Shown here one piece after another: positions 10,972 to 63,100 of a stretch of 64,000 nt of DNA. Numbering within the stretch: the stretch's first letter is position 1; each line of letters begins with the position of its first letter. The DNA comes from Asterochloris sp. CNOR1 (lineage: Eukaryota > Chlorophyta > Trebouxiophyceae > Trebouxiales > Trebouxiaceae): NCBI GenBank assembly GCA_963969365.1, contig OZ017750.1, positions 2,852,001 through 2,916,000 of the forward strand. Direction: 5' to 3'. Position numbers and translations under genes: made by a program. Below the pieces are notes generated by a model. The model did no database searches, was not told the origin of the DNA, and was given only the letters and a program-made list of their open reading frames with translations.

Positions 10972-13162
10972 TCATATATATTCAAGAGGGTAAGCTCTAA
11001 AACCGCCATGTGAATCTTGTGTCCATGGGAAGTCTGCCATACTTTGTGTCAGCTTTGGGTTGCCATGAAAAACACAGACACGGCTTGCCTGCAGCAGCTG
11101 CACCTGGTTCACAATTTTGCTCTGCACTCCAGGCTTCAATAGCGCGATCACAACATGCTGCCTCCTCACTGGCCACACCTTCAAGTTGAACACAGCTGTT
11201 GCCAGGGTCGCCACGCCATCCTCGCCTGAGCGATAGATTGGGAGACTCCTGTTGTGCGTATCGCCCAGGATGGCCAGCGCATCACTCATGCTTTGCGGCT
11301 CCTGCAGGATCAAGTTGCTGGGTGCTCCCTCGATAGGCCAGCACGCTGCTCACTGCACACTCTGCACACACTTCATCTCAGCATCACATGCCAGCCTTGC
11401 TGCGACGATGAGGGCAGGGAGGCGGAGGCTAGGAGTTGGCAAAACCTGGGGTGAAACAGGGATTTGCCCTCTGGTGCCCATGTCATGAGCCAAGGTTACT
11501 TGAAGCTGGCAGCCACCTGCTGTCCTGACTCCGTAGGCACAGTCTGGCCCCACCTTCATCTGAGCAGCACGTGCGAGCCGTGCTGTGCTGCTGGGATCGG
11601 GTACCTCAGGCACCCGCAAGCGCAGGAAGGAGTTGGCGTGGAAGAGAGTGCTGTTGGTGACTGCCTGCACCGACGCCACACTGCCTGGCCCCACTTCCAC
11701 GTTTGCAACCCGCCCCTCCTTGGCTGACATGATGTTGACGCTGTGCCCCACGCTCTGCCGGGGCAGCTGCGCTATGTCCACTGCCTGCCTGAAGGGCATA
11801 TGCAACAGGTTCAGGAGCAGTGGCAGCCGACTGCCTGTTTGTGTAGGCAAGCTTGCACATGCTGGCATCGCTGCACGTGTGTGACTTTTTGTGTAGGCAA
11901 GCTTGCATATGCTGGCAGTGCTGCACATGTGTGAGCTGGAAGCCTACCTGAAGGATGTCGCTGCCAGCAGCTGGCGGCTGACAAAGTTCCGTGCCACCCC
12001 TGGATTGACAATGGCACTGGGGAACACCGCATTCAGGGTGAAGCCAATGCCTGCCGAGTTGAAACCAAAGGCAGAGGTAGGCAGCTCGCCTGCATAGGTG
12101 TAGGCTGTCCACTGGACGTTACCCTGCACAGGGAAAGGTTCGACACCCACTTGCATGCATTCTGCTGGGTCAACCGTCTGGCGAGGCTGCTCAGGATCCT
12201 CCGGCAGGAGTGCGTGCAATGTGCTGAAAGCTTCCTGCTGCAAGGCAGTGGACCTCTGAACACATGCAGCAACTTCTTGCGCCTGCTGAGCGCCAAACAA
12301 ACATGAAAAAGGCGAACACCAGCCGGCCCACCTGCTGAGCACGGACAAAGTAAGTATGATTGGCGGCATCTGTTGTCATGTCTTCGTTGTGAGCAACAGC
12401 TGACACATTGAGGTCTGGCAGGTTCAGCAGGACATCAGAGCAGTCGTCCACCTGGTTGTGCAGAAGGACACCCATCTCGCTGCGCAGGTTCAGGATCAGC
12501 ACCTGCAGGGCACCATCCTTTGCTGCTGATGCCTCTGCCTGCATTGGGTGCTGGCAATGCTATGCCGCAATGCCAGCTCCCAGCAGCTCAAAAAGTCTCC
12601 AGCGGACATGCCTGCAGCCCAAAAGGGTGTGTGAGCCAGACCTGTGTGAAAGGTATGCCTGCTCCCGTCGCGATGCCTCTCAGCTCCTGGAACAGATCTG
12701 GCCACAAACTCTTGTTCAGCTCTGCCAAGCCTTCAAGCGCCTCTCTGCCCTCCACCGTCTCGACCCAGGCCTGCACAGCTTTGAAGCTGCTGTGTCAGAT
12801 CTCAGGAGGCCAGCATAGCACGCTGGACCAGAGCTGCAAGCTGCGCACCAGAGCTTGCTGAACGACATCGTTTGCCTTGATCCTGCTGTCGATGCTGGCT
12901 GCAAACGCATGCCCTTGGGCATGGCCCCTACCTGCAGGCACCTGAAATTGCTTCAAAAATGGCCCATGCTAGGTGTTGCATGCAGAGCATATGAGTGGGT
13001 GCATCAGGTTTACCAGGGTAACCCACCAAAGAAGGTATTGCATGAGGTGCAATCCAAGAAGGGTGTCGGCCCTGAAACAGGGAGGAGATTCCCAGTGCAG
13101 GACTCCTGATGCTTGCTCACTGCTGTAATGGCAGCCAGCAGCCAGGCCAGCCAGGCAAGCAT
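10972..13162 (-). CDS. Secreted C45-type (acyl-CoA:6-aminopenicillanate acyltransferase-like) N-terminal nucleophile hydrolase
   Basis: Seven exons fit in phase: 13162-13027, 12898-12822, 12770-12642, 12502-12332, 12123-11948, 11788-11554 and 11301-10972, giving 417 residues, usual for the family. The start is chosen because it opens with a signal-peptide-like stretch (MLAWLAWLLAAITAVS), so the product is probably secreted or lysosome/vacuole-directed. Family marks are the helix ELRGIATGAGIPFTQ, then LNLRSEM, then DDCSDV with the likely autoprocessing nucleophile Cys, then HNED, TAYTYAGELP and FGFNSAGIGFTLN. C45 enzymes cleave themselves at that Cys and hydrolyse or transfer acyl groups from amides; the substrate cannot be told here. 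The joins of the first three exons are less sure: the intron at 12821-12771 would be only 51 bp. The gene is divergent from the SKI3-like gene, 218 bp away. Confidence 0.8.
11371..11412 (-). repeat. Intronic copy of an exon 3' end (C45 gene)
   Basis: This stretch inside the last intron resembles the end of the preceding exon (11554-11596) at about three of four bases. It would read AARLACDAEMK against the exon's TARLARAAQMK. It lacks a clear donor, so it is a relic of a local duplication and not obviously an alternative exon. Confidence 0.7.
11833..11938. repeat. Intronic tandem duplication, about 53 bp twice
   Basis: The word tgtgtaggcaagcttgca occurs twice about 50 bp apart, each followed by a similar atgctggc...ctgcac stretch. 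Both copies are in the intron between the exons 12123-11948 and 11788-11554 of the C45 gene. Confidence 0.75.
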
Positions 13163-13380
13163 GTTGGGGCATGGGCACTTTCCTTCTGTCAGATGGGATG
13201 CTCAGGCAGCAAATGCTGCATGTGTGTGCCCATCACAAGCACTGTTCCCTTTCTGCACTCGGCTTAGCCTCCGTCAATTTGTGCCCCTGCATCCTGCCCT
13301 GCCTGCAAGCCAGGAGGTCCTGCATCTATGCTACGACCTACCTATCCAGCCTGATCCATCTGAGCATATTGTTGCCACAG
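13163..13380. promoter_or_regulatory. Short divergent intergenic region, probable bidirectional promoter
   Basis: Only 218 bp separate the start codon of the minus-strand C45 gene from that of the plus-strand SKI3-like gene. Both 5' regions must lie here. I see no clear TATA box. The role is inferred from geometry alone. Confidence 0.45.
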
Positions 13381-16300: not shown

Positions 16301-19300
16301 AGGGCTGCAGCTTTCATGTGGAGTCTGTTGCAATTCAGATATAGACGCTGCAGTCATCCAGTGTCCCGCGGCTTTGCTTGGGCATCTTAAGCGGTGTGGC
16401 AAATTGCAGCCTCAGCATGGGTCTGTAGACTACCCATGCTGCCCCTGAATGCAGGCAGCCAGGCAGCTCGCAGAGTCTGCACTGAAAGCGGCTGAGCAGG
16501 CTGGTTCAGCCGCTGCAGACACAGAGCTCGCCAGTCTTTGCTTCATCCTGGGCTGCGCCTGCTGGGAGCTGGGGGGCCAGCTGCGTTCTGACAAGCGCCA
16601 TGCACATGCGCACTGGCTCACGGCTGCAGGAGTGCAGGGCGCGCACCAGGCGGGCAGCTTCACCAGGTAGGGCTGCAGACACTGCATGCAGACTAATGGC
16701 GTGGCTCTGCTGCCATCTATCTCTTGCGTGATCCAGCACTGCAGTATGATGCTGTGTTGCCCGGAGGCAATGCGCCATGTCTGGCAGTTGGCACAGCATT
16801 TTGTTGCAGTGCTGCGACATCTGGAGTACTAAGGCTACCTCAGCATTGTGCTGCATGTGCTGGACCTTGACAAGGGAGATTGCAGGGGGGCAAAGCTGTG
16901 GCAGCTGGCCGCGCATCATCTGAGGACAGCAGCCTGGCCACTTCCTCACGTCTGGCCATTCTGCAGTTTGAGCTGCCTGTCATGCGGCTGCAGGCTGGGT
17001 CAGTGGTTCAAAGAGGTTGCACAGGATACGGCTCGTGCCAGGAAGTGCTTCCAGCGAGCCCTGTCCCTGGATGCCAATGAGGCTGCAGCAGGTGTCTGCA
17101 GCGCGGACATGCAGCTGTCCAGCCCGTCTTCTCATGGAGCAACCCATCGCTTGACCTGCACCACTGCAGTCTCACGTCAAGCAGCACCTTGCATCCTGTC
17201 ATGATGGCCTCTCGTCTGCATGTGGCACAGCTGCCTGTGAAGCAGTCTGCCATGCTTGACCATCATATTTCCTGCATCCATACAGCTGCAACACACTCAC
17301 GGCCCTGCATTGCTGCGCTTTCAATGCATGCACCACTTTGCGGCAATGTGCATCGCAGCAACTGGATCTTGCCTAGTGAGGCTCAGCCTTCTGTGCCTGG
17401 AAAGCACTCCGCCCTGCCTCCAGCATTTGCTGCACTCTCCAGCAACAATGCAGCAGACTGGCACAAGTGTTCGTCCCGGTGAAGCAGTCTGCCATGCCCA
17501 CACAGAATCCCCTGCTCACCCCCAGCAGCAGTGCACCACACCACTGCTGCAGGCGAGGCCCTGTGCGCCATGCTGGCAGCCTCTGGCAGCAGCAGAGTGG
17601 CCCATGCCCTGTGCCTGGAGCTGACTGCCAGGGCCCCCCATGCCACCTGGGCCTGGCGGCGCCTGGGCTTCCAGCACCTGCAGCTGGGGGAGGCTGAGAA
17701 GGCAATAGCAGTCTTCCAGACAGCCCTGCGAGGGGATGTGGGGCATGCAGCCGCCTGGGAGGGGCTGGGGCTGAGCTACCAGACCCTGGGGCGGCTGACA
17801 GCTTCCCTCAAAGTGGGACACTCCTATTCTTAAAGTGCCGCTGTGTCACTGACAATGGCAGGAGCATCATCAATGCATGGGACCAGAGCCAGGAGGTCAT
17901 CCCTGAAGATGCACAACAAACTGCTGCAGCACTGCTTGTGGCAGGGTTGCACAGGCTGGGCGATGCCAACTGCAAGGACACCGACTGCGTCGCACTGACT
18001 GTCATCAGCAAGTTTAGCTGTCCCTCCAGCCCAGCTGCCTGTTGAGCGCACATTCAGGCCAGTCCTGATCCTGTAGCTTGCCACCCTCCTGCCTGCGGAC
18101 TGGTGCAGGCATATGGGCGAGCCATCGACCTGGACCCTGCCCGCCTGTTCAGCCTGGTCCAGTCGGGCACCATCCTGCTCTCCCTGGGCAACGCCTCTGC
18201 CGGCCTGAAGCGCCACAGGCAGGCCTTGGCAGCAGCGCCAGCCCATGTGCCTGCCCTGTGTGGCACAGCAGAGACCCTACTGGCCCTGGCAAAGATGCAC
18301 AGCACCCAGGGAGCCACCGGTGAGCTTACAGAAGCACACTGCTCCTGGCAGCTCTTTTATGATGGCAGAGAAGGCAGCTCCGTGCACAGCACCTGCATTG
18401 TGCATGGAGCTTCAGGTGTTAGCTTGATGCCACTTGTGATGACAGTCCCATCAGCATGGGTTTCGACACAGACAAGCAGCTGCTGATGCCTGGGTGCAGC
18501 TGTCTGGCGGTCCCAGGTTCACACTGTCCTGCATGTAATTATCTGGACCACAAGATCTTGGGTTGCTGCAACGCCTGATCGCCTGCAGGCCAGGCAGCCC
18601 TGGAGTTGCACCAGGCGGTCGCCTATGCCACCACCTGCACACGGGAGCAGGCACAGCTGCAGTCTGGGTGGAAGCTGCTGGGGGATGTGCACCTGCAGCA
18701 CCACGCAGTGACGCCTATGGGGGAGGTTGAGGCCATAGAGCTGCAACAGAGGCTGCCTGTGAGCAAGCTGCTGCAGAGGTGAGAGTGCCCAATGGCCTCA
18801 GCCGCATTGCGGCCCTGTGTGCGTCATCCCAGCAGGCAACCAGTGTTGCTGGGCTGCTGGTAGTCTGGCTGCTGCACGCAGAGATGCAGCAGGGGCTGCC
18901 TGCGAGCAACCTGCTGCAGAGGTGGGTCCCATACGTGCTCCAACATGGGCTACTTTGCCTTTGGCATGCAGGCTACAGCCTGTTGCAGAGTAGCCAGTCA
19001 GAGCTGGTTCTGATGCACAGGCTGCTACATGGATGCTGATGCTTCTGGTGCTGATGTATGGCTCCAGTTCAGCTCAACTCAGGGGAGCTTTACCCGCTGC
19101 CCATCAAGAACTCCAGCGGGCAGCAGCCTTGTGCTGGGCTGCCTCAATTTCCAGGAGATGGGCGCCCAGGCGACAGCACCCGACTGGCAGCCCATATGGC
19201 TTGCCTGCAGGCACTGGACCTTGCCCTTGTGCAACACTACCTTCAGGGCCCCTTGTGTGCACACACAGGTGGCAGCGCCGCATCACAGCCATGTCAACAG

Positions 19301-22300
19301 CACGCAGAGCCTTTCTCAAGGCGCTGCACCTCGGCCCTGCCAGCGCGGCGGCCTGGGGTGACGTGGCAGCGACCTTCTACCATGAAGCACAGCTGCGCCG
19401 CAGCCACCCCAGCTTCCAGCCCCAGAAAGGCGACCAGCTCCGCAGCACAGCGCAGAGGCTCCTCACAGGTAGGGTGCTCAGGCTCTGGGGGTGCTGGCTG
19501 CCGGGGGCCTGTCTGCACAGAGGCCTGCCACAGCTCTGCATATGGCATGGTGGGTCCAACTGCTGGTGGCAATGGCTGTGAGCTGGCCGGGTGGGCAGCC
19601 TGGCAGCCTGCTGGGCATGCGGCACAGCAAGCTGCATAGATCCTACCCTGCATCTCACGCTGCGCTGCAACAGCCAACAGGCAGCAAGCTGCAATGGTGT
19701 TGGCAGCCAAGATCAAGGGAGGAGCACCCACCTGCGCAGCACAGGGCAGAGGCTGCTCACAGACAGTACGCCCTGGCCTGCTCCCTGCAGCTCAAGCGCA
19801 CACGTGCAGCCACCTGAGCAGCCTGGGAACTGCACACAAATGACTGATCGAGCCTGCCCTGCATGTGCCTTGCAGGCGCGCTCCGCCTGGAGCCCGCCTC
19901 TTCCACCCTCTGGGCAGCGCTGGGCACATGTGCCAGGGAACCAGCACTGTGCGAGTACGCCCTGGCGCGCTCCCTGCAGCTGGAGCCGAAAGCTTCGGCC
20001 ACCTGGGCTGCGCTGGGGCGCCTGTACCTGGTATCTGGCGAGCCGGGGCTGGCAGACAGGTGCCTCACGCAGGCGCGCAGCCATGAGCCAGCTTCTGTCG
20101 CCACCTGGGAGGCCATGGGGGCCCTCGCTGGGCTCAGCCCGTCGGGTGCGCTCACGCGTCAACAATGCTGTCGAAGTCAATCTGGTCACGATCTGGGAGG
20201 CCTGAGGGCTTGCAGGACTCAGGACTACTGTCAGGGCAACTATCAGCTGTGCTCTTGCATTGACCAAAGCAGGCAACACACAAGCTCTGATCACATATCT
20301 GCTTGCCACCTGAGAGGCCACGGGGGCGTTTGCTGGGGTGCGCTTCATCCAGTATTCTGCTGTGATGGTGGCCACCGCAGATGGCTGTACTGCAAATGGC
20401 TGCTACCCTTCCTCAAAAATGATGCACTCCTTCATAGGTCCTGCTGTCCAACCCAACATCATGGCATGGCCTCGCTGCAGCTTCAGACGCAGACTCTACC
20501 GTGGCAAGGAAGGTGCAACCTTTGTGCTACTCATGTGCACTGAAGGCAGAGTTGCATCATGCGACTATTGTTTGCCCCACCCACCATGCTGGCAGACACC
20601 AAGCTGCAGCTGCCCCTTGCGCTGCAGGCAGTGACGACAAATTTGACTGCTTCCAGCATGCCACCAAGCTATCTGCTGGCCCCGAGGCACTGCTAGGGTA
20701 TGCTGAGGGCATGCTGCGCAGGGGCTTCCCTGGCAGCGGCAGCGTGTATGCAGCCGCCCAGCGAACTGTGGAGGCCCAGCCTTGCAATGCGGCTGCCCAT
20801 GCAGCCTTAGGTCTGGCCTGTGAAGCCAGAGGGGCTTGGTCTGACGCTGCTCATGCGCTGGGCACAGCTGTGGAGCTTGCACAGGAGAGCCTTACCAATG
20901 GTAGGCAGGGCTTGACGTCATTGCATATGAGGGCTTGCCAACCACCCACTTGTGGTGAAGAAGCGGCTGCAACAGGAGTGCAATGCAAACGGCACTGGGA
21001 ATTGACACCGGGGGACATTCATCAAGTGCTGTGCTCATGTTGCGGCACAAGCACATACCACTGGCGGGCTTGGCCTGTAACTGCAATCAGCGTCTGGCCT
21101 TGGAGCGGCTGCAAGGCAGCTAGCAAGCACCAGCCTGCTTCAGCTCTGGCCTGCTGGACGTGTTGGGTGCTGCCTGCTTGTCGTGTGCTCACCACAGATG
21201 CTGCCTGCACATCCTACCCTGCAGGTGCGCTGAAGGCGCGGGCATCCTCTCAGACCGTCAGCAGTGTGAGTGCAGAGGGGCCTCTGCCTGTGCTGCTGCA
21301 GCAGAACCTGGCCCGTGTGCTGGTCAGGGCTGGCAGGCTGCAGGAGGCTCTGGGAGTGTATGAGCGCCTCCAAGCAGAAGGTGAATGGCCATGTTGCGTC
21401 CCGCATTCTGCGCTCCACTGGTCTGCACCAGCAAGCTTGTGCAGCACAGCACTCAATTTGGAGGTGTGGCAGACTGCCTCTGGTCGTGCAACAGAAGGGT
21501 AGATGGCCCTGGCTGTTCTCCTGCTGCTCCTTTTGTGGGTGCCCTGAATTGACCTCAGTTGCAATGTGGGTGCCCTGAATTGACCTCAGCTGCAATGTGG
21601 GCGCCCTGGAGGGACCTCAGTTGCACGTTGGCCCCAGATATGTCTGCAGCATCCCCTCAGAAAGAGGGCGGCCGCACCCACTCTCCCTGCCATATCAGGC
21701 AGCCCACCTGCAAGTGCCTGCAGGCATTCTGAAGCAGCCAGCTGCACGCATGGCCTTTGCGGAGGCCCTTGCCAGCACCGGCTCTTCCAGCTGTGCACTG
21801 GAAGTGCTGCAAGGAGCCCTGGAGGGTGATCCCACAGGGGAGGTAAGCATCAATGTCCCGCAAGGGCTGGTGGGTCATGGTGGCTGCGCTTTGCCTCAGT
21901 CACCAAACTGCAGCACCTTGCAGACACATTCGCATGCCCAATGTGAGGGCATTGCTGCTTGTGCTGCACAATAGGCTGCCCTTCATTGCGCTGCACCTCA
22001 CGGCTGCGATGACAATGCTTGTGGGCATTCGAGCTTATTGCCGGCAAGTTGCTGCAGGGTCATGGCCATCCAGTCAGCCAGGCTGTACTTGCTCCTGCAG
22101 GAGCACGCTGCCGTGCTGCACGCCATCATGAGGCTGCACCTGGCCACAGACCCCAATGCCCAAGCAGCAGCCAAGCCAGATGGCTTGCACCAGGCACTGA
22201 GCGCCCTTCACAAGCAGATGCCCGCTCTGCTGGCAGCCAAGCCGCCAGCAACTGCAGTGGAGCCTCTCATGCAGAGCATCCTGGCAGCGGCACTGGTCCA

Positions 22301-25300: not shown

Positions 25301-26251
25301 CATGTCCAGCCTGTGGGGTGCTCCCAGCCACCACGCCTGTTAGCAGCGGAAGAACACTGGCACGGCTGTCTCAGCGGCCTCAGAAAGCCTGCCCCTGCTG
25401 ACCCCTTGGCAACAGTTTCCTTGACAGTTGAGAGCATTTGCCTGCCATGGCTTTGAGGTGGTGTGCTGGCGTCCAGCATGCGGGCACGCTCCTCTGCCGG
25501 CGTGCTGCAGGTCGTCCTGGGCCTGCCAGTGTTGCAGGCGTCCCAGACATGCGCACCACACTGCTGCTGTGCTGTGCTGCGCTTCGTCCTGGGTCTGGTG
25601 CTGTTGCACATGGCCCCGGTGCCTGCTGAGGGGTGCAGCAACCTGCTGTTGCGCTGCAGGTTGTCCTGGGCCTGGTCCTGCTGCAAGCGTCCCAGGAGCC
25701 GGCTGAGGGTCGCACCAAGCTGCTGGGAAAGGCATGGCGCAGCCTGTCAGCAGCCTGCTTGCTGCAAAGCCAGGCAGCCAACTCTGGCGGGGCCCAGGCT
25801 CTGGCTGCTGCCCTGCTGGCCCAGGCTGAGGCTGCCGGCAATTTGAGGCGCAAGGAGGAGCGGGTGGCTCACCACATCTCTCAGGTGCAGACGGTGCATG
25901 CCCCCCGCCTCTATTGTGCCGTTGGCTTGAGCAGCAGCTCCGCTGTCGGTGGCCCCCTCTGCCGCTTCATGAGGTCGCTCACTTGCAACCTCTGGCCTAC
26001 CTGTATGCAAGTTGTGTCTGAAGTGTTGTCAATGCCGTCCCTGACTGTGGTGCCTTGCCCATGCTGGGCTATTGAGGCTGCATATGCTGCTGCAGGCGTT
26101 TGAGTGGTGGGCTGGGCCACTACCTGCAGCCTTGTACCTGCTGGCTGCTGCTCATCAGATTGCTGCTGAGCGAGCATCGCAGCCCTTGGCGCGTGCGGTG
26201 CACACAGCACCTCAGCTCAAAGAGACTTGGCATTACTTGGCAGCGCAGTGA
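13381..26251 (+). CDS. SKI3: Tetratricopeptide-repeat protein, SKI3/TTC37-like subunit of the Ski complex
   Basis: About 26 exons. Phase-consistent ones are 13381-13502, 13584-13752, 13929-14111, 14417-14559, 15176-15319, 15548-15809, 16071-16297, 16455-16666, 16994-17091, 17553-17812, 18109-18319, 18589-18778, 19269-19468, 19876-20145, 20628-20900, 21225-21380, 21724-21842, 22074-22332, 22881-23026, 23851-24284, 24547-24763, 25120-25266, 25660-25884 and 26096-26251. Less certain are an exon ending at 15023 (start near 14650) and one starting at 23229 (end near 23640). The product is about 1,850 residues of TPR-like helical pairs, e.g. GKVQYKLGHHEASQDAYQHA near the N-terminus and TWAALGRLYLVSGEPGLADRC in the middle. 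SKI3 scaffolds the SKI2 helicase and SKI8 and threads mRNA into the cytoplasmic exosome. The call rests on N-terminal TPR onset, length and TPR distribution; another giant TPR scaffold is possible. Confidence 0.65.
18881..18928 (+). repeat. Intronic copy of exon end plus 5' splice site (SKI3-like)
   Basis: About 40 of 47 bases match 18738-18786, which is the end of exon 18589-18778 with its donor. Both contain CTGCAGAG followed by GTG. The copy sits about 143 bp downstream and has its own intact-looking donor, so splicing from it would lengthen the exon. Confidence 0.85.
19735..19815 (+). repeat. Chimeric intronic copy joining the end of one exon to the middle of the next
   Basis: The first part matches the end of exon 19269-19468 (CGCAGCACAG..GCAGAGGCT..TCACAG). 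It is followed directly by a match to the interior of the next exon (about 19952-20006: GTACGCCCTGG..CTCCCTGCAGCT). The two sources are about 480 bp apart. The copy is in the intron between those exons. Confidence 0.75.
20298..20348 (+). repeat. Intronic copy of exon end plus 5' splice site (SKI3-like)
   Basis: It resembles 20094-20152, the end of exon 19876-20145 with its GTGCGC donor. GCCACCTG, GAGGCCA and GGTGCGCT are kept, with an internal gap. The copy lies about 200 bp into the following intron. Confidence 0.75.
21539..21634 (+). repeat. Three tandem 29-32-bp intronic repeats
   Basis: The unit gggtgccctgaattgacctc occurs twice exactly and a third time as gggcgccctggagggacctc, each followed by (a)gttgcaatg-like sequence. 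The array is in an intron of the SKI3-like gene between the exons ending 21380 and starting 21724. Confidence 0.9.
25501..25656 (+). repeat. Two intronic copies of an exon start with its 3' splice site (SKI3-like)
   Basis: The exon at 25660 begins GTTGTCCTGGGCCTGGT and encodes VVLGLVLLQASQEPAEG. Copies at about 25501-25553 and 25576-25656 read VVLGLPVLQASQ and FVLGLVLLHMAPVPAEG. The first copy also keeps an upstream CTGCAG acceptor. Confidence 0.85.
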
Positions 26252-26626
26252 TTGGCTGTACTGCCCCGTCCCCTTCACTCTGGACTGCTGAGAGTTGTAT
26301 TAAATCATGAAATGCATGCGTAGGCAAGTCAAGATCAGGGGGTTCTCTAATGCGGGGAGCAGCGACAAAAGTATGTGCAGAGCAGCAGCAAAACGCAGCT
26401 GAAAGAATGTGGCTGTGCTAGCCTACAACCAAATGCAGCGTGGCTGATGAGCAGCAAGAGGCCATCTAGCCATGGCCAGGATGCCTTGTCATTTATGGGG
26501 CTGCATCAAAAGGACTGCATGAGGCAGCTGGGAACAAGCCAGAGTATGGGACGGCTTGGATGCTTGTGGCACTGATGATGGCAAGAGCAGCAGCCTGTGG
26601 GGGGTGGCGCAGCAATTCTGCACTTT
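26252..26626. other. Convergent intergenic region
   Basis: This 375-bp stretch lies between the stop of the SKI3-like gene (plus) and the stop of the ribonucleotide reductase gene (minus), so it holds both 3' ends. I found no TGTAA signal on either strand and no coding signal. Confidence 0.6.
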
Positions 26627-29600
26627 TCAGAAGTCCTCATTGAACGAGATAGCGTGGCTACTGTTGCCGCCAGACAGCCCTGCCATGACGCCGCTCTTCT
26701 GATAGTCACCCACACGCTTCTCGAAGAAGTTGGTCTTGCCCCTGCAGCAATGAGGCAGGGGGCTCATCAGGCGGGCTGAGGACTGATGTCTTGCCATATA
26801 AGCTGGGGCTACACCGGAATGCAGAGCAGCAAAGCTGCAAAGGGACACACTGAAAGCCTGCTGACATGTGCATCAAGCAGCATGTTCCTAGTGTCTGCTG
26901 AGGCAGACAGGTGCTCAGCCCAGACTCACTGGAGGGACAGCTGCTCCATCCAAGGGAAAGGGTTGGCTGTTCTGTACTGCTTCTCTCCGCGCAGGGCCAC
27001 CAGCAGGCGGTCGGCCACAAACTCAATGTACTCCCCCATCAGGCGCCCATTCATGCCGATCAGGTCACACTGCATGCATCATGAGCATCTTGCGGTGAAG
27101 CAGTGGTAATGATGGCGCAGTGATTGTGCTCTTGGGTATCAGTGCAGGCCAATGTATCAAAAAAGACATCTGTGCTTGCTGGCTGATGTGCAACATAGGG
27201 CACAGACAAGTTCGATGGAGACTTGCGGGATGGGTGCACAGCGCGTGGCCTCCGAAAACAGCATGGTGGGCGGCCTGCTGCCGCCAGTGACAGGTGTGGC
27301 CTCTGTTTCAGCAGTGCTTCTGGTGGGCTTGGAGCCAGCATGTGTGGCCTCACTGGCAGGAGGTCCCGCACTCTGCCGCTGCTCACCAGCACGGGCAGGC
27401 CTCTGCTAGGCTTGACACCAGGGGCACATCCAGAACGGGCAACTTACCGGCAGGGCGTCGATGAGAAACTCCTTCTCAATGTCGACAGCCTCTGTGATGA
27501 TCTCTGTCAGCCTGTCGGCCTCCAGGGGGTGCTCCAGCAGCCTGCAGCAGAGACAGGCTACTTGCATGCACACAGCAGCTAACACATCTGTGGTGTCACA
27601 GATTGGAGGTCGGTGCCAGCGGTGTTTGAAGGTGGTGAGCTCCCCTCAACAGATACACGGCAGACTGGGTGCAGCACGGGTGCGCATGTCTCCATGACAG
27701 GCTGAGCAACCCACTACATGCAATCAACAGCAGGGCAGCCAGGCCAGGCGGCAGCGGAACATCAGGCCAGTGAAAACAAAGCAGCTGCCTGTGCACACTT
27801 CAACAAACTGGAATCAGCACTTGTTTGCACAGCAGGCAGGCACAGTGAAGAACTGGTGGACAGGCCCACAGGCAGCACAACACAGCACGGCCTGCCACAG
27901 GCGCGACCGGGGCCTGCAGGGGACAGCTGACAGTGGGCCCCACAGGCAGCACAGCCCAGCACCGACAGCCGCACTCACGAGTAGAGCAGGCAGGCAAAGT
28001 CGCAGTGGAGGCCCTCGTCCCGGCTGATGAGCTCGTTGCTGAAGGTCAGGCCGTGCATGAGGCCACGCTTCTTCAGCCAGAAAATGGAGCAGAAGCTGTA
28101 TGCAGGCAGCAATTGATTAAGCTTTTAACCACCAGCTTTGACGATGGGCACCCGACCTACGAGCTGGCAAGGCCATGAGATGGAGCTGGCGGCAGATGGA
28201 AGTGAGGGACAGTACAGGACCTGAACCAGGAGGAGCAGGCCGCACGCTGGCTGCCCAGCACAGGCCTGGCGCAAAAGACACGTCAGTGGCGCCTGTGTCA
28301 GTTGGTTGTGGTGGGGTGCTTTGAATGCTATGCCTGGCAGGCAAGACATCGCAGCATGGCTTTTGCATTTGTGGGGCCACAGCCCAGCCACAAGACTAAC
28401 CACAAGACTGACCACCAAGCTTGCCTGCCAGAGAAGAAGATGCCCTCCACTGCTGCGAAGGCCACAATGCGCTCTGCAAAACTCTCAGCGCTGCAGGCAT
28501 GAGGGTGTCATTGTCAGCTCTCGCAGAGCATTGCACTCTGTCAGCAGTCGTGAGCTGGCAGGCGCCATGCCCTGCAAACGCTCTGTTTGCTACACAGCAG
28601 AAGGACACCGACAATACATGACAGCCAGGTCGCTGTGCCTGCAAACCCAAGTGGCTGGCACAGCCCATTTTTGCTGGGCAGAGCCATGCACGCTGGCAGC
28701 AGGCCAAACATGGGCAGAGGGAGCCCACACAAATGCAGCGCATCAGGGTACCAGCTTGAACAAGTGACCTGGCAATCCACTTGAGCGCCCAGTCTGCCTT
28801 TCGCTTCACAGCAGGCACTGTGTCCATCGCGTGGAACAGGCGCTGCTTCTCCTGGGGGTCCTTGATGTATGTCTCCAGCAGGAGGCTGTACATCTCTGCA
28901 GCAGGGGGAGATGAGCATCGGCGAGCGCAGTCTGGGGTCATGCCGTGCAGCCCTACCGAAGGGCTGTACATCTCTGCAGCAAAGGAAGTTGGGCATGTGC
29001 AGGTGCAGCTCAGTGTCTGCGGAGCATTTCTTAGTCCTGCAAGAGTTTAACCTCATTGCAGCAGGGAAACTTTGGGTTTTGGCAGGTGGAGCTTGGGACC
29101 TGACAGACATGGCACAACGGTGGGGCGCCTCTGCAGCAGTGCAAGTGGGTTTCTTCTAGGCATGATGGAGACAGGCAAAAACAACTCCAGCAGAAGGCTG
29201 TGCGCCTCTGTCGCAGACATGCATGGGCTTTTACATGTGCAGCCACAGCTGGCACTCCTACACCCAGCAGGAGGCTGTACGCGTCTGCAAGTATGGCAAA
29301 TGAGGTTTGAGCAGGACTTGGAAGCGCATGATGGTGTGTAACGCCGTCAAAGCTGCCATGTAGCAAGCCTGTGCCAGAGGCAAGATGCAATGCACTGGCT
29401 GCTGAGGCCATGTAGCACAATGCACAGCAGGTGCACCCAAGCAGCCCCAAGTAATCCTCATGCAGCCTCACCTGAATGGATGTTCTCAATGGCAATTTGG
29501 AAGCCATAGAATGCCTTTGCCTGCAGCATGAAGTGCAAACTGCTCAGGACCACAACGCAGCACCAGGACCAGCGCCAGCCAGCATCCATATGTGGGCATG

Positions 29601-47300: not shown

Positions 47301-50300
47301 CATAGGGATTGTGCTGCATCATGGGCTCCTTGCTGCTCTTCTGGCAGGCCAGCTTGGCCTTCTTGCTGCTGCTGTTCGTGGGTGTCTCCGCAGAGGGTGT
47401 GCTCATCAGGGCTGTGAAGCGGTGCAGCATGCTGGGCCGCACTGCAGGGCAGCAATTGAAAGCTGACAGCCCCTTCTATGGGGCATGCAAAGCCAGGTGA
47501 GGTCAACAAGGGCAGACAAGATGGTGTCTCAGCTGCATATCGTGGGTGTGATCGTTACAGCAGGCATGCCAGCTCTGAAAGGGATGTTTGGCTCCAGCCC
47601 AAGTGCATGATGCAGCAGCATGTTGTTGTGCAGCCGATGCTTACTTGCTTTCCCAGCGGCTGCAGCCTTGACCATATCCTCCATCATACGCTGCATCAAG
47701 CTGGCGCGTGGCCCTGCAGGCGCCCGCAGCGCAGCAGTGTCAGCGCAGCTTTCACCCTGGGGTGCTGCTCTCGGGGGTGCCGAACAGATTATAGCTGAAC
47801 TGTCTGGCCTGCTGCGCATTCACTGGTACCAGACAGAAGGCATGCCAAGAGTGGGTTACCCTTGGCTGCCCCATCTTCCTTGCCACCCTCGGCAGCCTTC
47901 TTGGACCCCTTAGCCTGCTTCCTTCTGGTGTCAGGGGCATCATCGTCACTTTCCTCCCCTCTGCTCTTTCCGTTCCGTGCACTGCGTCTCTTGCCATCCT
48001 GCAAGAAGCATCTCAGTGAGGGTAATTGACACATTGCAGAGTCTGACAGATGCTCCAGGGCAATATGAAGCTCATAGTTGCTGTATCTGGGCGCCAAGCA
48101 AAGTCAAATAGCCTTGGGGCAATTGGTGATGACATATCATTGCTAGGTGATAGAGGTACAAAGTGTCAGGCTGCAGCATGACTGCTGTTCACATGAGGCA
48201 CTTCAAATCAAATCCTGTGCTGAGATCTCTCACAACAAACCATGCACACCATAACTAGCTAGTTACTATAATAACCGCTCTGTCACACCCACCTGCACTC
48301 CTGCCTAACCTTGGCTCCACTGTCTCAGCATAAAGGTTGCTGTGGGAGCTCTATGCTGACTGGTCTGCACAGCAAGCACAGCGCACCTCCTCATCGCCAG
48401 ACCCGTCTTCATCACTGTCAGCATTCCAACTTTTCTTTGCCTTCCCCTGCTGCTGCTTGGCCTTGACGCTGCTTGACTGGTTGCTGCTGCCGCTGCCCCC
48501 TGCACTGTTGATAACGGACCAGCAGCACCGCAGAACCTTGAGCCACCAGCCATGGCGCAAGCCAATGTAGAGGACCAGCACTGCAGGGCATGGGCAGCAG
48601 AGTCCAGCTCTGGCGAGTTGCATAAGATCAATGACTGGCAGCATCGATTGCGTGCGCCAAGTCTCAATAGGCAAGACCCCTGCGTGCTAGTACCCTCAGC
48701 CAGATGTCGGCAAAGTGTGGATGCTGTAGCCAGTCAAGGCCATGCTTGCCTGCTGCGCATGCACCTGGCCTGGTGTAGCAACACTCGCTTGCGTTGCCGC
48801 AGGAACCATGGAAGCATCTTGCAGCATCCGCAGACACCCATGATCCAGCAAGCCAGTCACATTGCACACTGCCAGGACAGCACACTTTTGCCTGCTGCGG
48901 CTGTGCAGCATACAGCACGGCGAGACTCACATGCGATGCCGCCGGACCCGATGGTCCCCAGGAAGCCAAACACCTTCTTCCAGCAGCGATTCAGGACGCT
49001 GCAGGCAATGTTCAGGGTGGTGCACTTGCTGCTGCAGGTGTCTGAGCTGCTGCTAGAGGGGGTGTTGGCCCCCGTGACCTTGTCGCTGATGTTTGACTGG
49101 GTGGGCGTAGAGCTGTACACTGTTGTGTTGGTCAGGAAGCTGACTGGCAGCGTGTCAATCTGCTGGCCCTGCAAGGAGCAGGCAGACACAGGCTACAAAC
49201 AAGCTGGAGCAGAACGTGCTGAACATGCAATGCAGGCAACCAGCAGCAGGCTACCTCTAAGCATGCAGCATGCCGGAGTTCAGCAGTGGTCTGTCCATAG
49301 ATGCTGCAGCCTGCCTGATGCATTTTGAGCGTCTGGCTTGGCAGTCCCATGGGGAGTCACCAGCAGCTGCCCAGAAGGCGTGCATTCCTTTGCGCTGACA
49401 GGATCAAGCGCCTGAGCAGGCTGCGCTGACAGGGTCAAGCGCCTGAGCAGGCAGCCTATGAGCACGACCCTGGCCTCATGCGCAGTGGTGCCTCAGCAAT
49501 GCAAACAGCTGATATGCTGCAGGGCCACCCGTGTGCCCCCCTTCCAGCATGCAGGTCAAGCTTGCAAAAGAAGACAGATGCCCGTCATGGCTATAGTCCT
49601 GCATCGTCCGCCACAGGCAAGGTGCTCAAGGGTTGAGCCAGGCAGCTGCGGTGGTCATGTGTACATCCACATGTTGCACCTGAAATGCGGCAGATGGTGG
49701 TCATGCTGGATGCAGAGCAGGGGTTGGCCCCTATGCACTCCCTCAGGTTGCGGGCCAGGCTGGAGGCTCACAATGGAGTTGGTGAGGCCCACAGTGCAGG
49801 TGTTGTTGAGCTGGGCAGCTGTGGTGGTCATGTACACCTCAAACACCTTGCGAGCCACCTGCTGGGCTGCCAGGGTGGCGCTTTGTGCAGGAATGGCGCT
49901 GATGCCGGCACTGCAGCTGGACACCTGCAGGCAGGGACATAAAAGGCCTGGGTGCAGGAACCTCTGCAATTGAGTCAGGCTCGGGGGCTCACTGGCTGCC
50001 CTGAGCGCAAGCTGGCTGCTTGCTGAGCACTCCTCTGGCTGGGGCCAAGTACTTGTGCCATGTGGCCCAGCCTGTCTGGGGCTTGCTGAGTACCCGGAGT
50101 TTGTGTGATGGCTGCCCGCACTGCTGCGGATGCCTGCTGGCAAGTCTGAGCTGCACATTCTAGACACAGCAGGTGGGGCGGCGAGCGGGAGGGGTTGCTA
50201 ACTGGGTGCAAAGTTGACAGAGGCATGTGCTGGTGAGCAGCAACCCACCGTGACAGTGTAGCTGGCAGGAATGTACCCTGTGTTGGCAACATCGACCTGC

Positions 50301-53300: not shown

Positions 53301-55654
53301 GTCAGTGAGAGCGCCTCAGCACCTCATGCAGGCAACCTGGCACAGCAGTGCATTGCACGCCCAACTGCAGCCAGGGCACCCAATACATGGCAAGCTGGCC
53401 AGCCTTGGGGGTGCAGGAGGGTAGGTAGGCAGAACACCATGTAAGCAGCAGCTGCCTTCATGCTACAGATGTGAGGAGGCCCACCTGCTTTTGTGAGCGA
53501 CCCTTTGACATGCCTCAGGCAGCCAGTCGAGACTGCAACAAACTCAAAGACGCTGTGGCAGCCCCTCATCATGCCTCAAGCAGCCATTAAGGCTGTTCCA
53601 GCACCTACCAGTACCATGACATAAGCAGGCGAAAGGTGCAGCAGCAGCCCACCTCATACCACAGGTCTGCATAGCGCATACATGATGCTGAGCCAGGGAC
53701 GCCGTTCAGGAACAGGTCCGAGCTCCAGAGGCTGCAGTCCAGCCCTGCCCGCGTGTCGGCGCTGGACCCACTGGTGAAGCTGGCTGAGGTGGCCTGGGCC
53801 AGAGTGCACTCGCAGCAGAAGCCCTGGCTGTCCCTGCAGCATGCGGGGAGGGGGCTGCGCAAGACTGGCCGGGGTGATGTGTGGCCGTGGCGCCCTTGGC
53901 CCTGGCTGTTCCTGCACAGGCGTTGGCAGCAGCGTATTGGCCTCTAATGTTGCTGGCAGCCTAGGCTCGCGGCAGAGGCTCTGACTGTTCCTGCATGACA
54001 TGGGGAAGGAGCTGCCTAAGACTGGAGCAGAGGGCTTGTGCCAGGGTGCGCCTGCGGCAGAGACACTCACTGTACATAAAGATGTTTGAATGGCAGACAA
54101 CAGCCGTCTCATACAGTCAACAGCATGCATTTGCCGGCAGAACTGCTGTCTGTTCCTGCACACATACTGACATCCTGGACAAGGCTCGCAAGGGTGCCAC
54201 CCCTGACAGGTATGTCAAGCATGCAGGCTGCGCCGACAGTACGGCCACACAAGCTTTCTGGGCTGCACACTGCAAGCAGCCTGCTGTTGCAGTTGTCGTG
54301 CACAGGTGCTGCCTGCTTTGTGCTGATCCATGTATCCCTCACTATGAGGAAGCTTGGATGGGATGCTGGGGCAGCATGAGACATGCCTCTAGGAAACTGC
54401 TGCCACCAGCCTGCATCCCAGCTGCAGGGATGCCACACTGTCTGGCCAGTGCTGGGGCAAGGCGGGCTGCACAGGCACAGCACCAGAGCACCTCCGCTGC
54501 CTGCTATTGCACACTAGAGCATCTCCGCTGCCTGCTACCGCTCAACCAGGTGAATCTGCCTCCCCTGCCTGCACTAAGCCCCAGCGCAGGACAGCCTGTC
54601 CGGTCAGGCCAATGGCCCAGGCTTACGCGATCTTGGTGCCGCTGTCGTCCACTGCCCAGCCGCAGGTGGGATTGGTGGAGGTGCTGCTGTCGTCACAGGT
54701 GCTGATGGCATTGTTGCCCCCCGTCTGGATGATCTGCAGCAAGGACCAGTCCCAGAAAGTGGACAGGCTCTGCGTTGATCACATGCTCTTGAGCACATGC
54801 AGCTCAGAGAGGAGCAATACATGCTAGAAACACAGGGTTCAGCGCAGGGACCCTCCTCATAGCACAGAAAGCAGAGCACAGCTACCTGCTCGTAGGGCTT
54901 GGAGTTGAAGGCTTGGGCATAGGTCAACGGGTAGGATGCATAGACAGGAGACTTGGTCATCTGGACACTGATTGCCTGAGTCAGGTCTCGGCAGGTGCAG
55001 CCGGCGTCCGTCGCATAGTTGCAGCTGCAGGGGCAGGTGCCGGTTGCGCTGCAGGGCCAGAGCGAGCACCTGTCAGGCTCAGACAGTCTGTTGGGTGCTA
55101 GCTGCTGCAGGCAATCATGCCTGTTGCGCCGCAGGTGCAGGGCGTACGCTGCAGGAGCAGAGTATATGTACTGCTGTCTTTGTCAGCCGGGTGGGCACTG
55201 TGTAGCTGCCTCTTGAGAAGCTGTGTGCCAGCTGCGCGCTGTGTCGAGGAGCTGTGTGCCAGCGCTGCGCCTGTACTTTTGTCCATGCTGTAGCTGTAGG
55301 CCAGCTGCACGCTGTGCAGCTAGCAGCACGGGCCTTGTGCCCAGCACTGGGGCTGATGGCTTCACCTGTTGATGCATGGGATGCTGTACTGGAGCGTCTC
55401 GGTGGCCAATGTGGTGCTGGCATCGAGCGTAAGCGTGGTGACCAGCTTCTGGGAACATGTAATGGAGGTGGTCGAGGTCTGCAACACAGCTGGTGTAATT
55501 GAAGGCGATGGCTCTTACAGTCATCCGGCAACTCTGGCAGCGGACTCACTGATCCATTATTGACACAGGTCTGCAGTGCGCTTTCGGCAATCACAGACTG
55601 AGCTGCAGCATGTCTCAGGAGCGGCACAGTGAGGATGGCAAGCCAGCACCACAT
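44381..55654 (-). CDS. HAP2: HAP2/GCS1 gamete membrane fusion protein
   Basis: Twenty exons in phase: 55654-55550, 55478-55366, 55048-54886, 54733-54627, 53833-53653, 52937-52715, 52213-52083, 51503-51327, 50800-50657, 50362-50249, 49924-49772, 49168-48931, 48580-48387, 47998-47860, 47713-47645, 47441-47274, 46719-46485, 46085-45434, 44850-44594 and 44474-44381, giving about 1,218 residues. HAP2 is the eukaryotic class II fusogen that merges gamete membranes. Seen: signal peptide MWCWLAILTVPLLRHAAAQS; TKSPVYASYPLTYAQAFNSKPYE; STCDDSSTSTNPTCGWAVDDSG; the HAP2-GCS1 core DSQGFCCECTLAQ to ASCMRYADLWYE; ECNKIG-like TQCNMIGTGYSAFRYQ; QSCLGSQILDYY; the domain III Cys set; a membrane helix across 48931/48580; then RCCWSV and a cytosolic tail of about 530 residues with basic, acidic and Gln-rich parts. 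The last two exons (from 44850) are joined by phase only and could belong to something else. Confidence 0.9.
49380..49456. repeat. Near-perfect 33-bp tandem repeat in a HAP2 intron
   Basis: GCGCTGACAGG followed by (A/G)TCAAGCGCCTGAGCAGG occurs twice in direct succession (about 49390 and 49423). It lies between exons 49924-49772 and 49168-48931 and is very recent by its identity. Confidence 0.9.
49633..49690 (-). repeat. Intronic copy of exon sequence (HAP2)
   Basis: It resembles 49799-49853, inside exon 49924-49772, sharing GGCAGCTG then GGTGGTCATGT and the following ACA(C/T). The copy is downstream of that exon in transcript order, at about 75-80 percent identity by eye. Confidence 0.7.
53127..53220 (-). 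repeat. Intronic copy of an exon start with 3' splice site (HAP2)
   Basis: The true exon start at 52937 (plus-strand TTGCCCAGGGTGTACCCCTGCAG) is echoed at about 53127-53150 as GTGCCCAGGGTACAACCCTGCAG. The similarity continues in part into the intron side (CTGCAGTCT..AAGGCTCT against CTGCAGTCT..GAGGCTCT). Confidence 0.75.
53899..54163 (-). repeat. Three intronic copies of the exon start of the HAP2 core domain
   Basis: The true start at 53833 encodes DSQGFCCECT. Copies at about 53899-53920, 53968-54025 and 54132-54163 are in the intron just upstream; the second and third read RNSQSLCREP and RNRQQFCRQM. The second copy also repeats about 35 bp of flanking intron (GGGG then GGGCTGC..AAGACTGG), so the unit spans the acceptor. 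Confidence 0.85.
54484..54540. repeat. Short tandem repeat, about 32 bp twice
   Basis: AGAGCA(C/T)CTCCGCTGCCTGCTA is present twice in direct succession in a HAP2 intron (starting about 54484 and 54515). Confidence 0.85.
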
Positions 55655-57999: not shown

Positions 58000-58404
58000 G
58001 CTGCCGCTGCTGCAGAGTATGTGAAACCTCACTGCATAGTGCTCTGCCCACACTGCTTTTCATTGTGCCACATTTGAGTACCAGTTTTGCCTGGTGCCAG
58101 CATGTGTTGCCGCCTACATTTCAGTCTTCATAGGTCACGCAGTTGACCCTTGCTGCTCATTCAGCTCCTCTGATAACAAGGCTCTAAGTGTCACAAAGAG
58201 AGAGAGGTCTGAAGTCCGGTGGATCACAATGAACGGGCATGGGACTGACATAAATTCAACGCGGGACACAACAGCGATTCATGCTGTACTCACATGATCA
58301 GCAAGCAACATTGAGGGACTTCAGCATTCCCTGGCAGGGTTGGTCAATTGTAAATGGCAGCACCTTTTGACTTCATCAAAATCAGCTCAGCAACCGTGGC
58401 TACG
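58000..58404 (+). other. Intergenic region with probable poly(A) signal for the hydrolase
   Basis: This 405-bp gap separates tandem plus-strand genes. It has low CAG content and one TGTAA at 58349-58353. It presumably holds both the hydrolase 3' UTR and the promoter of the universal stress protein gene. No other element is called. Confidence 0.5.
58349..58353 (+). terminator. TGTAA poly(A)-like signal
   Basis: TGTAA is the usual poly(A) signal of green algae. This one lies 350 bp after the hydrolase stop and 52 bp before the next start codon. Assignment to the hydrolase is by position only. Confidence 0.4.
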
Positions 58405-59530: not shown

Positions 59531-60144
59531 GGATGAGTTCAGGCCATCTTTGCAGCGTTTAGTCACATGGCTCTGTGATGCATGAAGCATATCTCAGACA
59601 TGAAAGCATGTCAGGCCAGCACTAGCAGCGATGGTGACTGAGGTCAGGGCCGCTCAGCAGTCCTAAACTGTCATTTGGGCTGCAGCAGTCACGCTGCTGA
59701 CAAGCTGCCCGCAGCAGTACTATGCTGCGAACGACGGTGCAAAGTGTGCATATTGCAACACCACCGGCCTGCCCTCCCCTGAGGCTTCAGTGACAGCTGA
59801 CGTCTGCAGTACCTCTTCCTCAGCTGCGTGGCGTGAGCTAAAACAAGCATTGGCACTGAACAGGGCGAATTGTGTACCTCTTGAGCCCGAAAAACCTTGG
59901 CAGTCCTGCTGGTGTCATGGTGAATGCTTGAAAGTTGTCCTCAGCTGGCCAGCATAACCGGCAAGAGATGAACAATGGCGTCAGCACAATCAATTTTAAC
60001 AGCATGAACACTGACACTTTACAAAATCCAGGGCTTACTATCTGACACAGATGCACAAACCCCGACTCTTGGCTGGAAGCAGCAGAGTCCAGCAGTGGGT
60101 GCAGCACTGCTCAGTTCAGCAGTGCATTCACTAAACGTCACGAC
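59531..60144. other. Convergent intergenic region
   Basis: This 614-bp stretch lies between the stop of the universal stress protein (plus) and the stop of the kinase (minus). Apart from one TGTAA on the minus strand near the kinase end, I see no coding or regulatory signal. It is more AT-rich than the gene bodies around 59850-60050. Confidence 0.6.
60019..60023 (-). terminator. TGTAA poly(A)-like signal of the kinase gene
   Basis: On the minus strand TGTAA lies about 122 bp after the kinase stop codon, a normal position for a green-algal poly(A) signal. Confidence 0.5.
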
Positions 60145-63100
60145 TCAGATCTTGACTGACTGCGGGCCCCAGGGGGCACATGCCCCAAAGCTGCTGCGAC
60201 GGGATGCCGGCATGCTCCGGCCACTGCTGGAGGGGCCTGCCTCAGTCCCTGCAGCTGGAGCAGGGACCTGGGTTGCAGATGTCATGTTGGGGAAGATGTC
60301 CAGCAAGGAGGCCAGCCCAGTTCTACCCACAGGCCGGGCTGCATAGAGGGTTGGTGCCAGCTTCCCCTTCTTCTTCTCGTCTATGCTCCCCAGCTCAGAC
60401 ACAATGCTGCGGCTGGTGCTGCTGCGCAGGCCCAGGCTCAGGCGGCGCGAGACTGCTTGCAGGGAGGGGCGCCGCAACTGCAGGGAGCGGCGGCTGGAGC
60501 TGGTGCGGACAGGGGGCAGGGTCGACTGGAGTTCCGGGGAGGGCGCCATGTCATTCAAGGACTCGCCGGCCACCACGCGGTTGCGAAGCTCCACCAGACG
60601 TGCTGCCACAGCACTGACTGGCGGCCGGCAGCTCGGGTTAGGGTGTGTGCAGGAGGTCACAATGTCCTGCAGACATGCAGGACGAGATTCTCAATATCCA
60701 CAGCAGTGAGATGTGTAGTTGTCAGGGAGAGATGCAGGCAGAAAGGGGCAGCATCCTGCAGCTGCGGGATGGTGGGAGGTGCAACAAAAGCAACAGCCCT
60801 GGTGGGAGGTGGACAGCTGGCATTATGGCGCCTGCAGGAGGCCACACACACGCAAGATCAGGTTGTCAGCAACCCACAGCAGTCTTGAAGGGTGGTCGGC
60901 AGGTGCATGCAGGAGTTATGATATCCTGTGCAGCAGTACAGTGAATGATATGATCTGTCCTTTTTGGGGATGCAACATGCTGCTGGAAAGCCTGCCACCG
61001 GGGCCATGTTGCATGCAGCAGGTTGCAATGTCCTGCAGAGACGCAAGCAAGTTTCGGTAACCCTCTGCGGTGCTCATGTGAGGCCAGCAGCTGATGCCAG
61101 AATGTGGCGTTATTTTGCAGCGGGAGAAAAGGAGTGACAGCAATGCGTAGCAGCGCTGATTGGAGGGACCCTCAGCTAGGGTCACACTGCCCTGCAGCAG
61201 CATGGCGATGTGAATGTAGGATATGCTGTGGCCATGGCAGCTGAGGCAGGGCATGTGCAGGAGGCGCGGGGAGGTCAAGCAACATGCAGCACTGATAGAG
61301 GTCAGCACCTGGGTTGGGGTGCATGCAGAGAGTCACAGACACGCACAATGAGATTGTCAATGGCCCACAGTGGTGCTGAAGAGAGGCCAGCAGCTGAGAG
61401 CAGGGTTCATGCATCCTCAAGTGGCAGCAACAAATCAGACAGCAGCGCTGACGGGAGATAAACAGCTGGGGGCAGGCTGGATGAGGTCACATCAATCATT
61501 AGTCAGCAGTGCGCCTCAGTGATCGAGTGCCACTGCCAGAAGTTGCACAGGAGGAGGCAGCATGCTGGCAAGCCCCATTCGCCATCGGCTGGCTGCACAA
61601 TGATGCGCAGTAAGTGGGCAACCCTGTTCCTGCACAGTACACGAAGGCAAGACTGTGCCAGACATGTAACGGTGTATGCTGGCAGGCATCATGGCCTCCA
61701 ACCAGTAGCCTCAAGCATGTTAGCAGCCAGTAAAGTGGCTGCTGCAAGGCGTTGGGGTGTCAGGCCAACCGATCGCCTGCTGGCTCACTTCGAAAAGCAG
61801 GGGCATATCTGGCGAGCAGGGTAGGCGGCGCTGATGCACAGCCACGGCCTGCACGATGTCGGCGAAGCTCATGCCTGGCCACACCCGCGAGCAGTGGAAC
61901 ATCTCCCACAACAGGACGCCCAGGGCATACACGTCAGTGGCCTGCAGGACGCACTGCAACAGCCTTGGAGTGGAGCATGCCAGGTGACTCGAGGGTGGTG
62001 CTGGCTTGGCAGGCAGTGCCTGGCTAGGCCCTGAAGAGAGCGCCTGTCAGCCCCATTGAGAGCTTCTGTCTATGACATTAGATGGGATTAAGTAGTTGCA
62101 CTTATTTGGCATCGCGCCAAGCACGCTTCCCATGGCAGCTGTATGCATGATGGCACCAGACCACGTCGCGAATGGGGGCCGAGGGCAACGCCAAGGTGGC
62201 GCTACCTCAGCCCGACTGCCGGCTGCAGGCACTGAAAGGATGAACATGCCGCGCCAAGGACGCACAGTGGCCCTGCTTCTGGAGGTTGATTTCCCCCTAA
62301 GCTGTCACAGCCGCCGGCAGGTCATCTGCACTGCCGACAAATTCTGGGAGCAGCTCCATATGGCTGCCGTGCCAGCTGCAGTCAATTCTGCTCACCATTC
62401 AAAGTCTAAGCTGGCGCCCGCGTCTCGACTGACACCAGCATCTGAACTGACACCAGCATCAGCATCACAAGAGGCTCACCATGCTGCTGATGCCGCATTT
62501 GAGGGTCTCTGGTGCCCAGTACGCGAGGCCGCCGATGTCTGTGCGTGGCAGGATGGCTGCGCCTCGTGTGCTGTTGCCAAAGTCTGTCAGCTGTAGGCAG
62601 GTAGCAGCGCTCAAGAGTGCACACGATTCCAGGACGCCTGGCAGCTTGCCATCTGCCTGGGCAGCTGAGCAGACAGCGCGGCAGGTACGGAAGACATCTT
62701 GAAAGTGCTGTCCAGCACTTTCAGTATGGCATGCAATCAGCAACTACGCCCCTAAGTGGACAGCATACACAATGAAGCGCGCAGCAAGCTGCCGCGGGTG
62801 GTGGTCAGGCAGCTGCTGACCCTGCGAGTCCTGACCAACCTTAGAAGTAAAGCCCCTCTGTGTCTGGGCTGCCTTCAACAGCACGTTGCTGCTGCAGACG
62901 TCTCCATGGACAATGCCTTCGCCATGGAGGTAGGCCAAAGCTCCCGCCACCTCCCAGGCGGTGGCTGCAGGTGCAAAGGCCATATGCTGCACAAGATGTG
63001 TTGATAGCCTGCTGACCCTTCGGCAGCCCTTTCAGGAGCAGCAGCTTCCCATGCTGTGCCATGCAGTGGGCTGCACTTTGCAGGTATGTGCTGAGGTGTG

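Follow-up and report, generated by a model that had tools for sequence, protein, structure and literature searches.

The region of interest is a 64 kb stretch of the genome of the green alga Asterochloris sp. CNOR1 (contig OZ017750.1, positions 2,852,001–2,916,000), hereafter called the window. Its predicted genes include a TPR-type gene, RNR2, IDH, a TMEM135-like gene and a HAP2-GCS1 gene, and a number of their introns contain diverged copies of the edge of a neighbouring exon, often together with its splice site. In an initial annotation, these copies were read as the traces of a continuing process in which tandem duplications across exon-intron junctions lengthen introns and may shift splice sites. 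We find that these copies do exist, close to their source and in the same orientation as it; that they are old; and that they are probably the fossils of ordinary short tandem duplications that fell almost at random and enlarged introns that already existed.

Gene models and sampled sequence

The window was analysed together with 200 kb from ten contigs, sampled in blocks of 20 kb, giving 264 kb in 11 blocks of a 56.4 Mb genome (21 contigs; G+C mostly 0.55–0.65). Junctions were placed from the sequence by a purpose-written, two-strand gene finder with a relaxed gene penalty, which predicted 84 genes and 569 introns (median length 242 bp) with splice consensus CAG/GTGAG at the donor and CTGCAG/G at the acceptor. 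Two genes, IDH and RNR2, were checked against solved homologues: 13 exons of IDH read through from the ATG to the end, and RNR2 reads through nine exons, its first exon not being placed. Pfam matches above cut-off were HAP2-GCS1, Iso_dh, Usp and alpha/beta hydrolase; TMEM135_C_rich and Tim17 fell below it. The best solved relatives of the HAP2 protein are 6dbs, 6e18 and 5mf1, from Chlamydomonas.

Introns contain local, direct copies of their own exon edges

Comparison of the 264 kb with itself by BLAST returned 112 direct pairs and one inverted pair at spacings of 50–500 bp (E ≤ 0.01; pairs spaced by <50 bp were left to Tandem Repeats Finder). Pairs lying far apart are rare within blocks. The window alone yields 26 direct and two inverted pairs, with 25 of the 26 direct pairs spaced by <500 bp. 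A predicted junction is crossed by at least 8 bp in 45 of 117 direct pairs, and the non-redundant copies are 66–95% identical.

Exon edges of up to 60 bp were then compared with their own introns, a hit being a score of at least 30. The test took in 413 of the 569 introns (those 60–1000 bp long with flanking exons of at least 30 bp) and found a match in 40, or about 10%. The same edges matched introns of other genes in 1/3304 comparisons, non-adjacent introns of the same gene in 0/2088, the reverse complement of their own intron in 2/826, and shuffled introns in 0/826. At this threshold, false hits are almost absent. Every one of the 11 blocks contributes hits (1 to 9 each), and 26 of the 67 predicted genes are affected, so the statement that most genes carry such copies was too strong. 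The window contributes 9 of 98 introns and 5 of 11 predicted genes by this test. Six genes with copies were counted there in all; because the gene finder fused some neighbours, the true number may or may not reach the at least seven given earlier.

At the junctions of IDH and RNR2 that were checked against homologues, copies were found in 2 of 20 introns; both score above all 100 controls, and both run across an acceptor (including 23 intronic bases in RNR2 and four in IDH). When two of the repeat families were searched across the 56.4 Mb genome, each was found at its own locus only, with no dispersed copies (these counts are lower bounds). The analysis therefore confirms that the copies exist, that they are local and oriented, that they cross junctions and that, for the two families searched, they are not a dispersed introner or transposon.

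Duplications are placed almost at random

The placement of pairs on gene structure was compared with a random expectation. From the 117 direct pairs we removed one with a spacing of at least 600 bp (leaving 116) and then 31 that overlapped others; for the remaining 85 non-redundant pairs, 1000 sets of random positions were drawn. Junction-crossing pairs number 33, against 22.8 ± 3.6 expected. Intron-intron pairs (31 seen, 34.9 ± 4.4 expected) and exon-exon pairs (11 seen, 13.7 ± 3.2 expected) are as frequent as chance would have them. Placement is thus near random: geometry alone yields most of the junction crossing and leaves a moderate excess, and a process strongly directed at junctions is not supported. 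We attribute the excess, without proof, to slower decay of pairs in which one copy is held in an exon.

The shape of the pairs is in part that of tandem duplication. Homology covers at least 85% of the spacing in 16 of the 85 pairs, with units of 65–163 bp. Among the partial pairs (65 of 69 tested, gapped test), residual homology in the gap between the copies has a mean z of 0.73 (t = 3.7), and z exceeds 2 in 12 of the 65. The reading frame is respected in exon-exon pairs, where the spacing is a multiple of three in 15/20, but not in exon-intron pairs (19/53; 116 pairs classed). Of 42 exon-intron pairs, 29 have an alignment whose exon part extends up to or beyond the junction; in the others it ends 2–78 bp short.

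Tandem exon duplication and mutually exclusive exons were also considered, and rejected. In 37 of the 42 exon-intron pairs the aligned part extends only 19–68 bp from the junction, in exons of 117–384 bp, and the exon-intron spacings just given do not favour the reading frame as mutually exclusive exons should.

Decay of the copied splice sites is near neutral

Some copies might have been kept by selection as alternative or decoy splice sites; judged from sequence features, we consider this unlikely, though of the alternatives to neutral fossils it fares best. Retention was scored in 43 copies lying inside predicted introns (pairs up to E 0.1), which cover 40 junctions. The GT is kept in 15 of 21 donor copies and the AG in 13 of 19 acceptor copies, where a simulation of one-sided neutral decay gives 13.6 and 12.4, respectively. 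Together, 28/40 dinucleotides are kept, against about 55% elsewhere; such retention is nevertheless what the simulation expects if drift affects the copy alone and the real site stays fixed.

Splice-site scores lend the idea of functional sites its strongest argument. Fossil acceptors have a median score of 7.5, close to that of real acceptors (8.3) and far from that of intronic AG decoys (−2.6), with 7 of 19 fossils scoring at least as high as the real site, and their median was reached in none of 3000 neutral simulation runs. For donors, the fossil median is 4.3 and the real median 6.7, with 5 of 21 fossils at least as high; here the neutral simulation accounts for the score (P = 0.14). The acceptor result suggested selection on copied acceptors, a reading that we dropped after a control on the word TGCAG. 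This word occurs 2916 times in introns (about one per 53 bp, counting both strands), about nine times the base-composition expectation of 331 and 1.5 times that of a first-order Markov model. It is kept about equally often away from junctions (80/141) and at acceptors (12/19), while other 5-mers are kept in 29% of cases. Moving the exon edge to the copied site would yield an open, in-frame extension in 7 of 37 cases, against 4.1 expected; on the other side, exon-intron spacings ignore the reading frame. Selection on the copied sites is not demonstrated, and they decay about as neutral sequence would.

The mismatches between exon and intron partners are spread nearly evenly over the codon positions of the exon partner (0.18, 0.16 and 0.20 at first, second and third positions, and 0.22 at fourfold sites), and most change therefore lies in the intron copy.

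The duplication layer is old

That the process is continuing, with introns growing and splice sites shifting as it goes, seems to us slightly less likely still than functional sites. Its attractions are that copies occur in every sampled block, that one intron holds three clear ones, and that junction crossing exceeds the random expectation, the excess being a moderate one. The identity spectrum of the copies speaks against it. Among the 58 pairs of at least 40 bp in the 264 kb, none reaches 90% identity, and 40 lie at 75–85%; the six pairs at or above 90%, of 84 classed, are all shorter than 40 bp. Had copies arisen at a constant rate, about one in three of the detectable pairs should, by our own estimate, exceed 90%. 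Young copies would have been seen: 278 of 288 planted duplicates with 0–8% divergence were recovered, as were 69–71 of 72 at each step from 0 to 20%. Short-period arrays (10–50 bp) are 95–100% identical in 19 of 71 cases, and the assembly therefore does not simply lose young repeats; the five arrays with a period of at least 65 bp stand at 77–88%. The duplication layer is old and not visibly continuing.

The absence of exon-intron pairs at 90% identity or more (0/42) raised a further candidate, namely that copies are "born diverged", as by repeat-induced mutation. We rejected it: no directional, C-to-T-type bias was found in the substitution spectrum of the pairs, and fourfold sites carry an excess divergence of 0.054 over the other sites (interval 0.014–0.095), which favours slow drift.

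The copies probably enlarge existing introns

The 73 of 569 introns that hold a copy have a median length of 393 bp, and those that hold none 212 bp, a contrast to which the greater room for copies in long introns may also contribute. The likely effect of the duplications is growth of existing introns. In this respect the earlier description is borne out in part: short, local, junction-spanning duplications are present in all 11 blocks and their copies lie in longer introns; that they are strongly directed at junctions or continuing is not upheld.

The initial annotation also linked the copies to intron gain through duplication of an AGGT-bearing exon segment (the Rogers model), and this we hold to be very improbable. 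The mutation would be of the same kind, and the 3' ends of four introns match the end of the upstream exon. Only one of the four does so in register (a 375 bp intron in the C7 block), which makes the in-register AGGT signature 1/413 at 3' ends and 0/413 at 5' ends, with 0/2478 in controls. Moreover, the copies sit within pre-existing introns and carry one junction. Very old gains could be invisible to this test. Equally improbable is that the similarity arose by chance, through a composition rich in CAG and CTG, or that the assembly produced it: for all the abundance of TGCAG in introns, the controls of the same composition gave next to no matches, and copies that differ by as much as these are unlike the duplicated assembly of one sequence.

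A probable history of tolerated tandem duplication

With good though not full confidence, we interpret the copies as what is left of ordinary tandem duplications with a short unit (65–300 bp or so), near-random in placement, old, and enlarging introns that were already there. Under this interpretation, (i) a unit of about 65–300 bp would have been duplicated in tandem, some time ago, at near-random positions in genes; (ii) a duplication over one splice junction would be tolerated, with one junction copy serving the exon and the other becoming intron; (iii) a duplication inside an intron would likewise be tolerated, and one inside an exon would persist mainly if in frame; and (iv) the intronic copy would drift, with selection holding the exon copy. 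With introns similar in length to the unit, a junction must fall within many of the duplications that are tolerated; and since the intron copy drifts while the exon copy is selected, exon-edge copies should stay recognisable longest. The molecular event may have been slippage or microhomology-mediated template switching, perhaps aided by the frequent TGCAG word. The rate of duplication was presumably higher in the past, and the choice of which junction copy is the one in use is likewise a presumption.

A number of observations weigh against this interpretation. Exon-intron pairs (42 seen, 29.1 ± 4.3 expected) are in excess by about three standard deviations, and predicted-intergenic pairs are scarce (1 seen, 7.4 expected, with only 6% of the sequence called intergenic). 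In many partial pairs the gap between the copies lacks homology, and a test with stiffer gap costs gave a weaker signal (mean 10.4 against 8.8; z > 2 in 6/60); some pairs may have arisen by insertion of a short copy some way off. Splice dinucleotides are kept more often than other dinucleotides on either side of the junction (55–57% on the exon side, 50–53% on the intron side). Finally, anchored identity is 0.79/0.78 on the intron side and 0.80/0.79 on the exon side, a smaller contrast than one-sided drift predicts, and exonic silent sites have changed less than a model of free drift gives.

A sharper version of this history is possible, although we would not bet on it: tandem duplication of ~100 bp units could have come in a burst, limited in time, that enlarged more than one in ten introns and then almost stopped, leaving decoy splice junctions as a dated layer, and the spliceosome may to this day sample those fossil acceptors that are nearly competent.

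Relation to known systems

Junction-spanning tandem duplication is already known; what is unusual here is its frequency and the lack of young copies. In potato, an RdRp gene carries a tandem genomic duplication that extends over an intron-exon boundary, and also an 83 bp tandem duplicate within an intron (PMC4974935). There, as here, the duplicate crosses one junction and carries the acceptor, its tract and the exon start. The potato event created a new, spliced intron, with copies differing at ten nucleotides; in Asterochloris, existing introns appear enlarged, the copies are old, and some 10% of introns are affected. A review counts tandem genomic duplication among the routes of intron gain (PMC3443670). 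The Rogers AGGT model, as outlined there, shares with our case a short, within-gene tandem duplication that yields extra copies of splice sites, while its signature, an intron that coincides with the duplicated unit, is all but missing here.

Within-gene duplication is also described as common in work cited by PMC3443670 and PMC4974935, in agreement with our findings; as presented there, that work concerns whole-intron segments and intron creation, whereas here units of ~100 bp enlarge introns. Introners influence introns genome-wide and are reported chiefly from lineages that evolve fast, green algae among them (PMC9860276). The copies described here likewise influence introns genome-wide; unlike introners, which are dispersed families, they form local pairs, and the two families searched occur at their own locus only. 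A genome-wide layer of intron-enlarging junction copies is not described among the open-licence matches listed, as far as their titles and the beginnings of their abstracts go.

Step-by-step lengthening of introns without transposons is rarely seen. A compact genome that keeps legible copies of its junctions makes growth by small local duplication countable and roughly ordered in time.

Copies in individual window genes

Position numbers below are those of the window, with strand in brackets. For the RNR2 and TMEM135-like genes, the pool of controls for single copies included the introns under test, which inflates both the highest control scores and the P value (0.003) obtained for the TMEM135-like gene.

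In the first gene, a copy of the exon end with its GT donor lies at 11355–11402 (−), 80% identical to the real edge at 11537–11585 (junction 11553/11554); the GT is kept, and the exon-edge score against the own intron is 39. The TPR-type gene has two intronic copies of exon ends: 18880–18924 (+), 89% identical over 45 bp to 18737–18781, and 19728–19762 (+), 89% identical over 35 bp to 19434–19468 (edge score 50). Next to the latter, 19765–19827 (+) copies an internal stretch of the exon that follows (19954–20017; 78% over 64 bp), with homology that extends into the gap between the copies (z = 4.5). At 25504–25648 (+) lie intronic copies of an acceptor side and exon start (real sequence 25653–25725; 75–84%; score 47), in which the AG is lost.

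RNR2 carries three copies of an acceptor and exon start (real acceptor 28896/28895). The copy at 28962–28996 (−), 86% identical over 35 bp, exceeds all 100 controls at a homology-checked junction; those at 29264–29289 (−) and 29185–29216 (−) score 37 and 34, each reached by 1.0% of 300 controls. The fossil acceptor at 28973 was chosen by the gene finder instead of the real one, and the gene finder also skipped a probable RNR2 exon at 28095–27979. Copied junctions can thus mislead gene finders, and more such ab initio annotation errors may exist elsewhere in this genome.

In IDH, 32793–32844 (−) copies the last 4 nt of an acceptor and about 46 nt of the exon start (real exon from 32669). The true junction is placed by the full-length IDH reading frame; the copy scores above all 100 controls and has a stop in its frame. 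Three of the 20 homology-checked introns in IDH and RNR2 are GC-AG introns, apparently a high share, each with the donor CAG/GCAAGC (last exon bases at 32513, 29996 and 28425, minus strand).

The TMEM135-like gene carries both donor and acceptor-side copies. Its exon end and donor at 39206–39278 (+; junction 39264/39265) recur three times, at 39328–39379 (+; 81%, GT kept), 39403–39476 (+; 78%, GT kept) and 39505–39548 (+; 84%). Further along, 39837–39862 (+) copies the exon start at 39930–39955 (DAVKLAL; 92% over 26 bp); it exceeds all 300 controls and was called an exon by the gene finder. Copies of an acceptor and exon start lie at 40537–40574 (+; 84%) and 40770–40816 (+; 81%), both with the AG kept and both matching the real junction at 40879/40880, and at 41792–41833 (+; 81% to 41934–41975, above all 300 controls). 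In this gene, too, fossil donors and one acceptor were probably mistaken for real sites by the gene finder.

An intronic array of ~87 bp units at 45204–45461 (−) extends into a predicted exon at 45434 (69% over 175 columns), and the donor GT is missing from the copy. At 49632–49660 (−), an intronic copy matches the exon stretch 49805–49833 (90% over 29 bp; edge score 39). The HAP2-GCS1 gene has a copy of an acceptor and exon start at 53966–54025 (−; real sequence 53809–53868; 77%, AG kept). At the end of the given range, 60827–61404 (+) is an intron-intron repeat pair (69% over 87 bp, spacing 491).

In-frame tandem repeats also occur in coding sequence, at 3011–3195, 6907–7109 and 8350–8524. 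They lie in a long, Ala/Gln/Pro-rich predicted protein and have spacings of 96, 75 and 102 bp, the last corresponding to a 51 bp unit.

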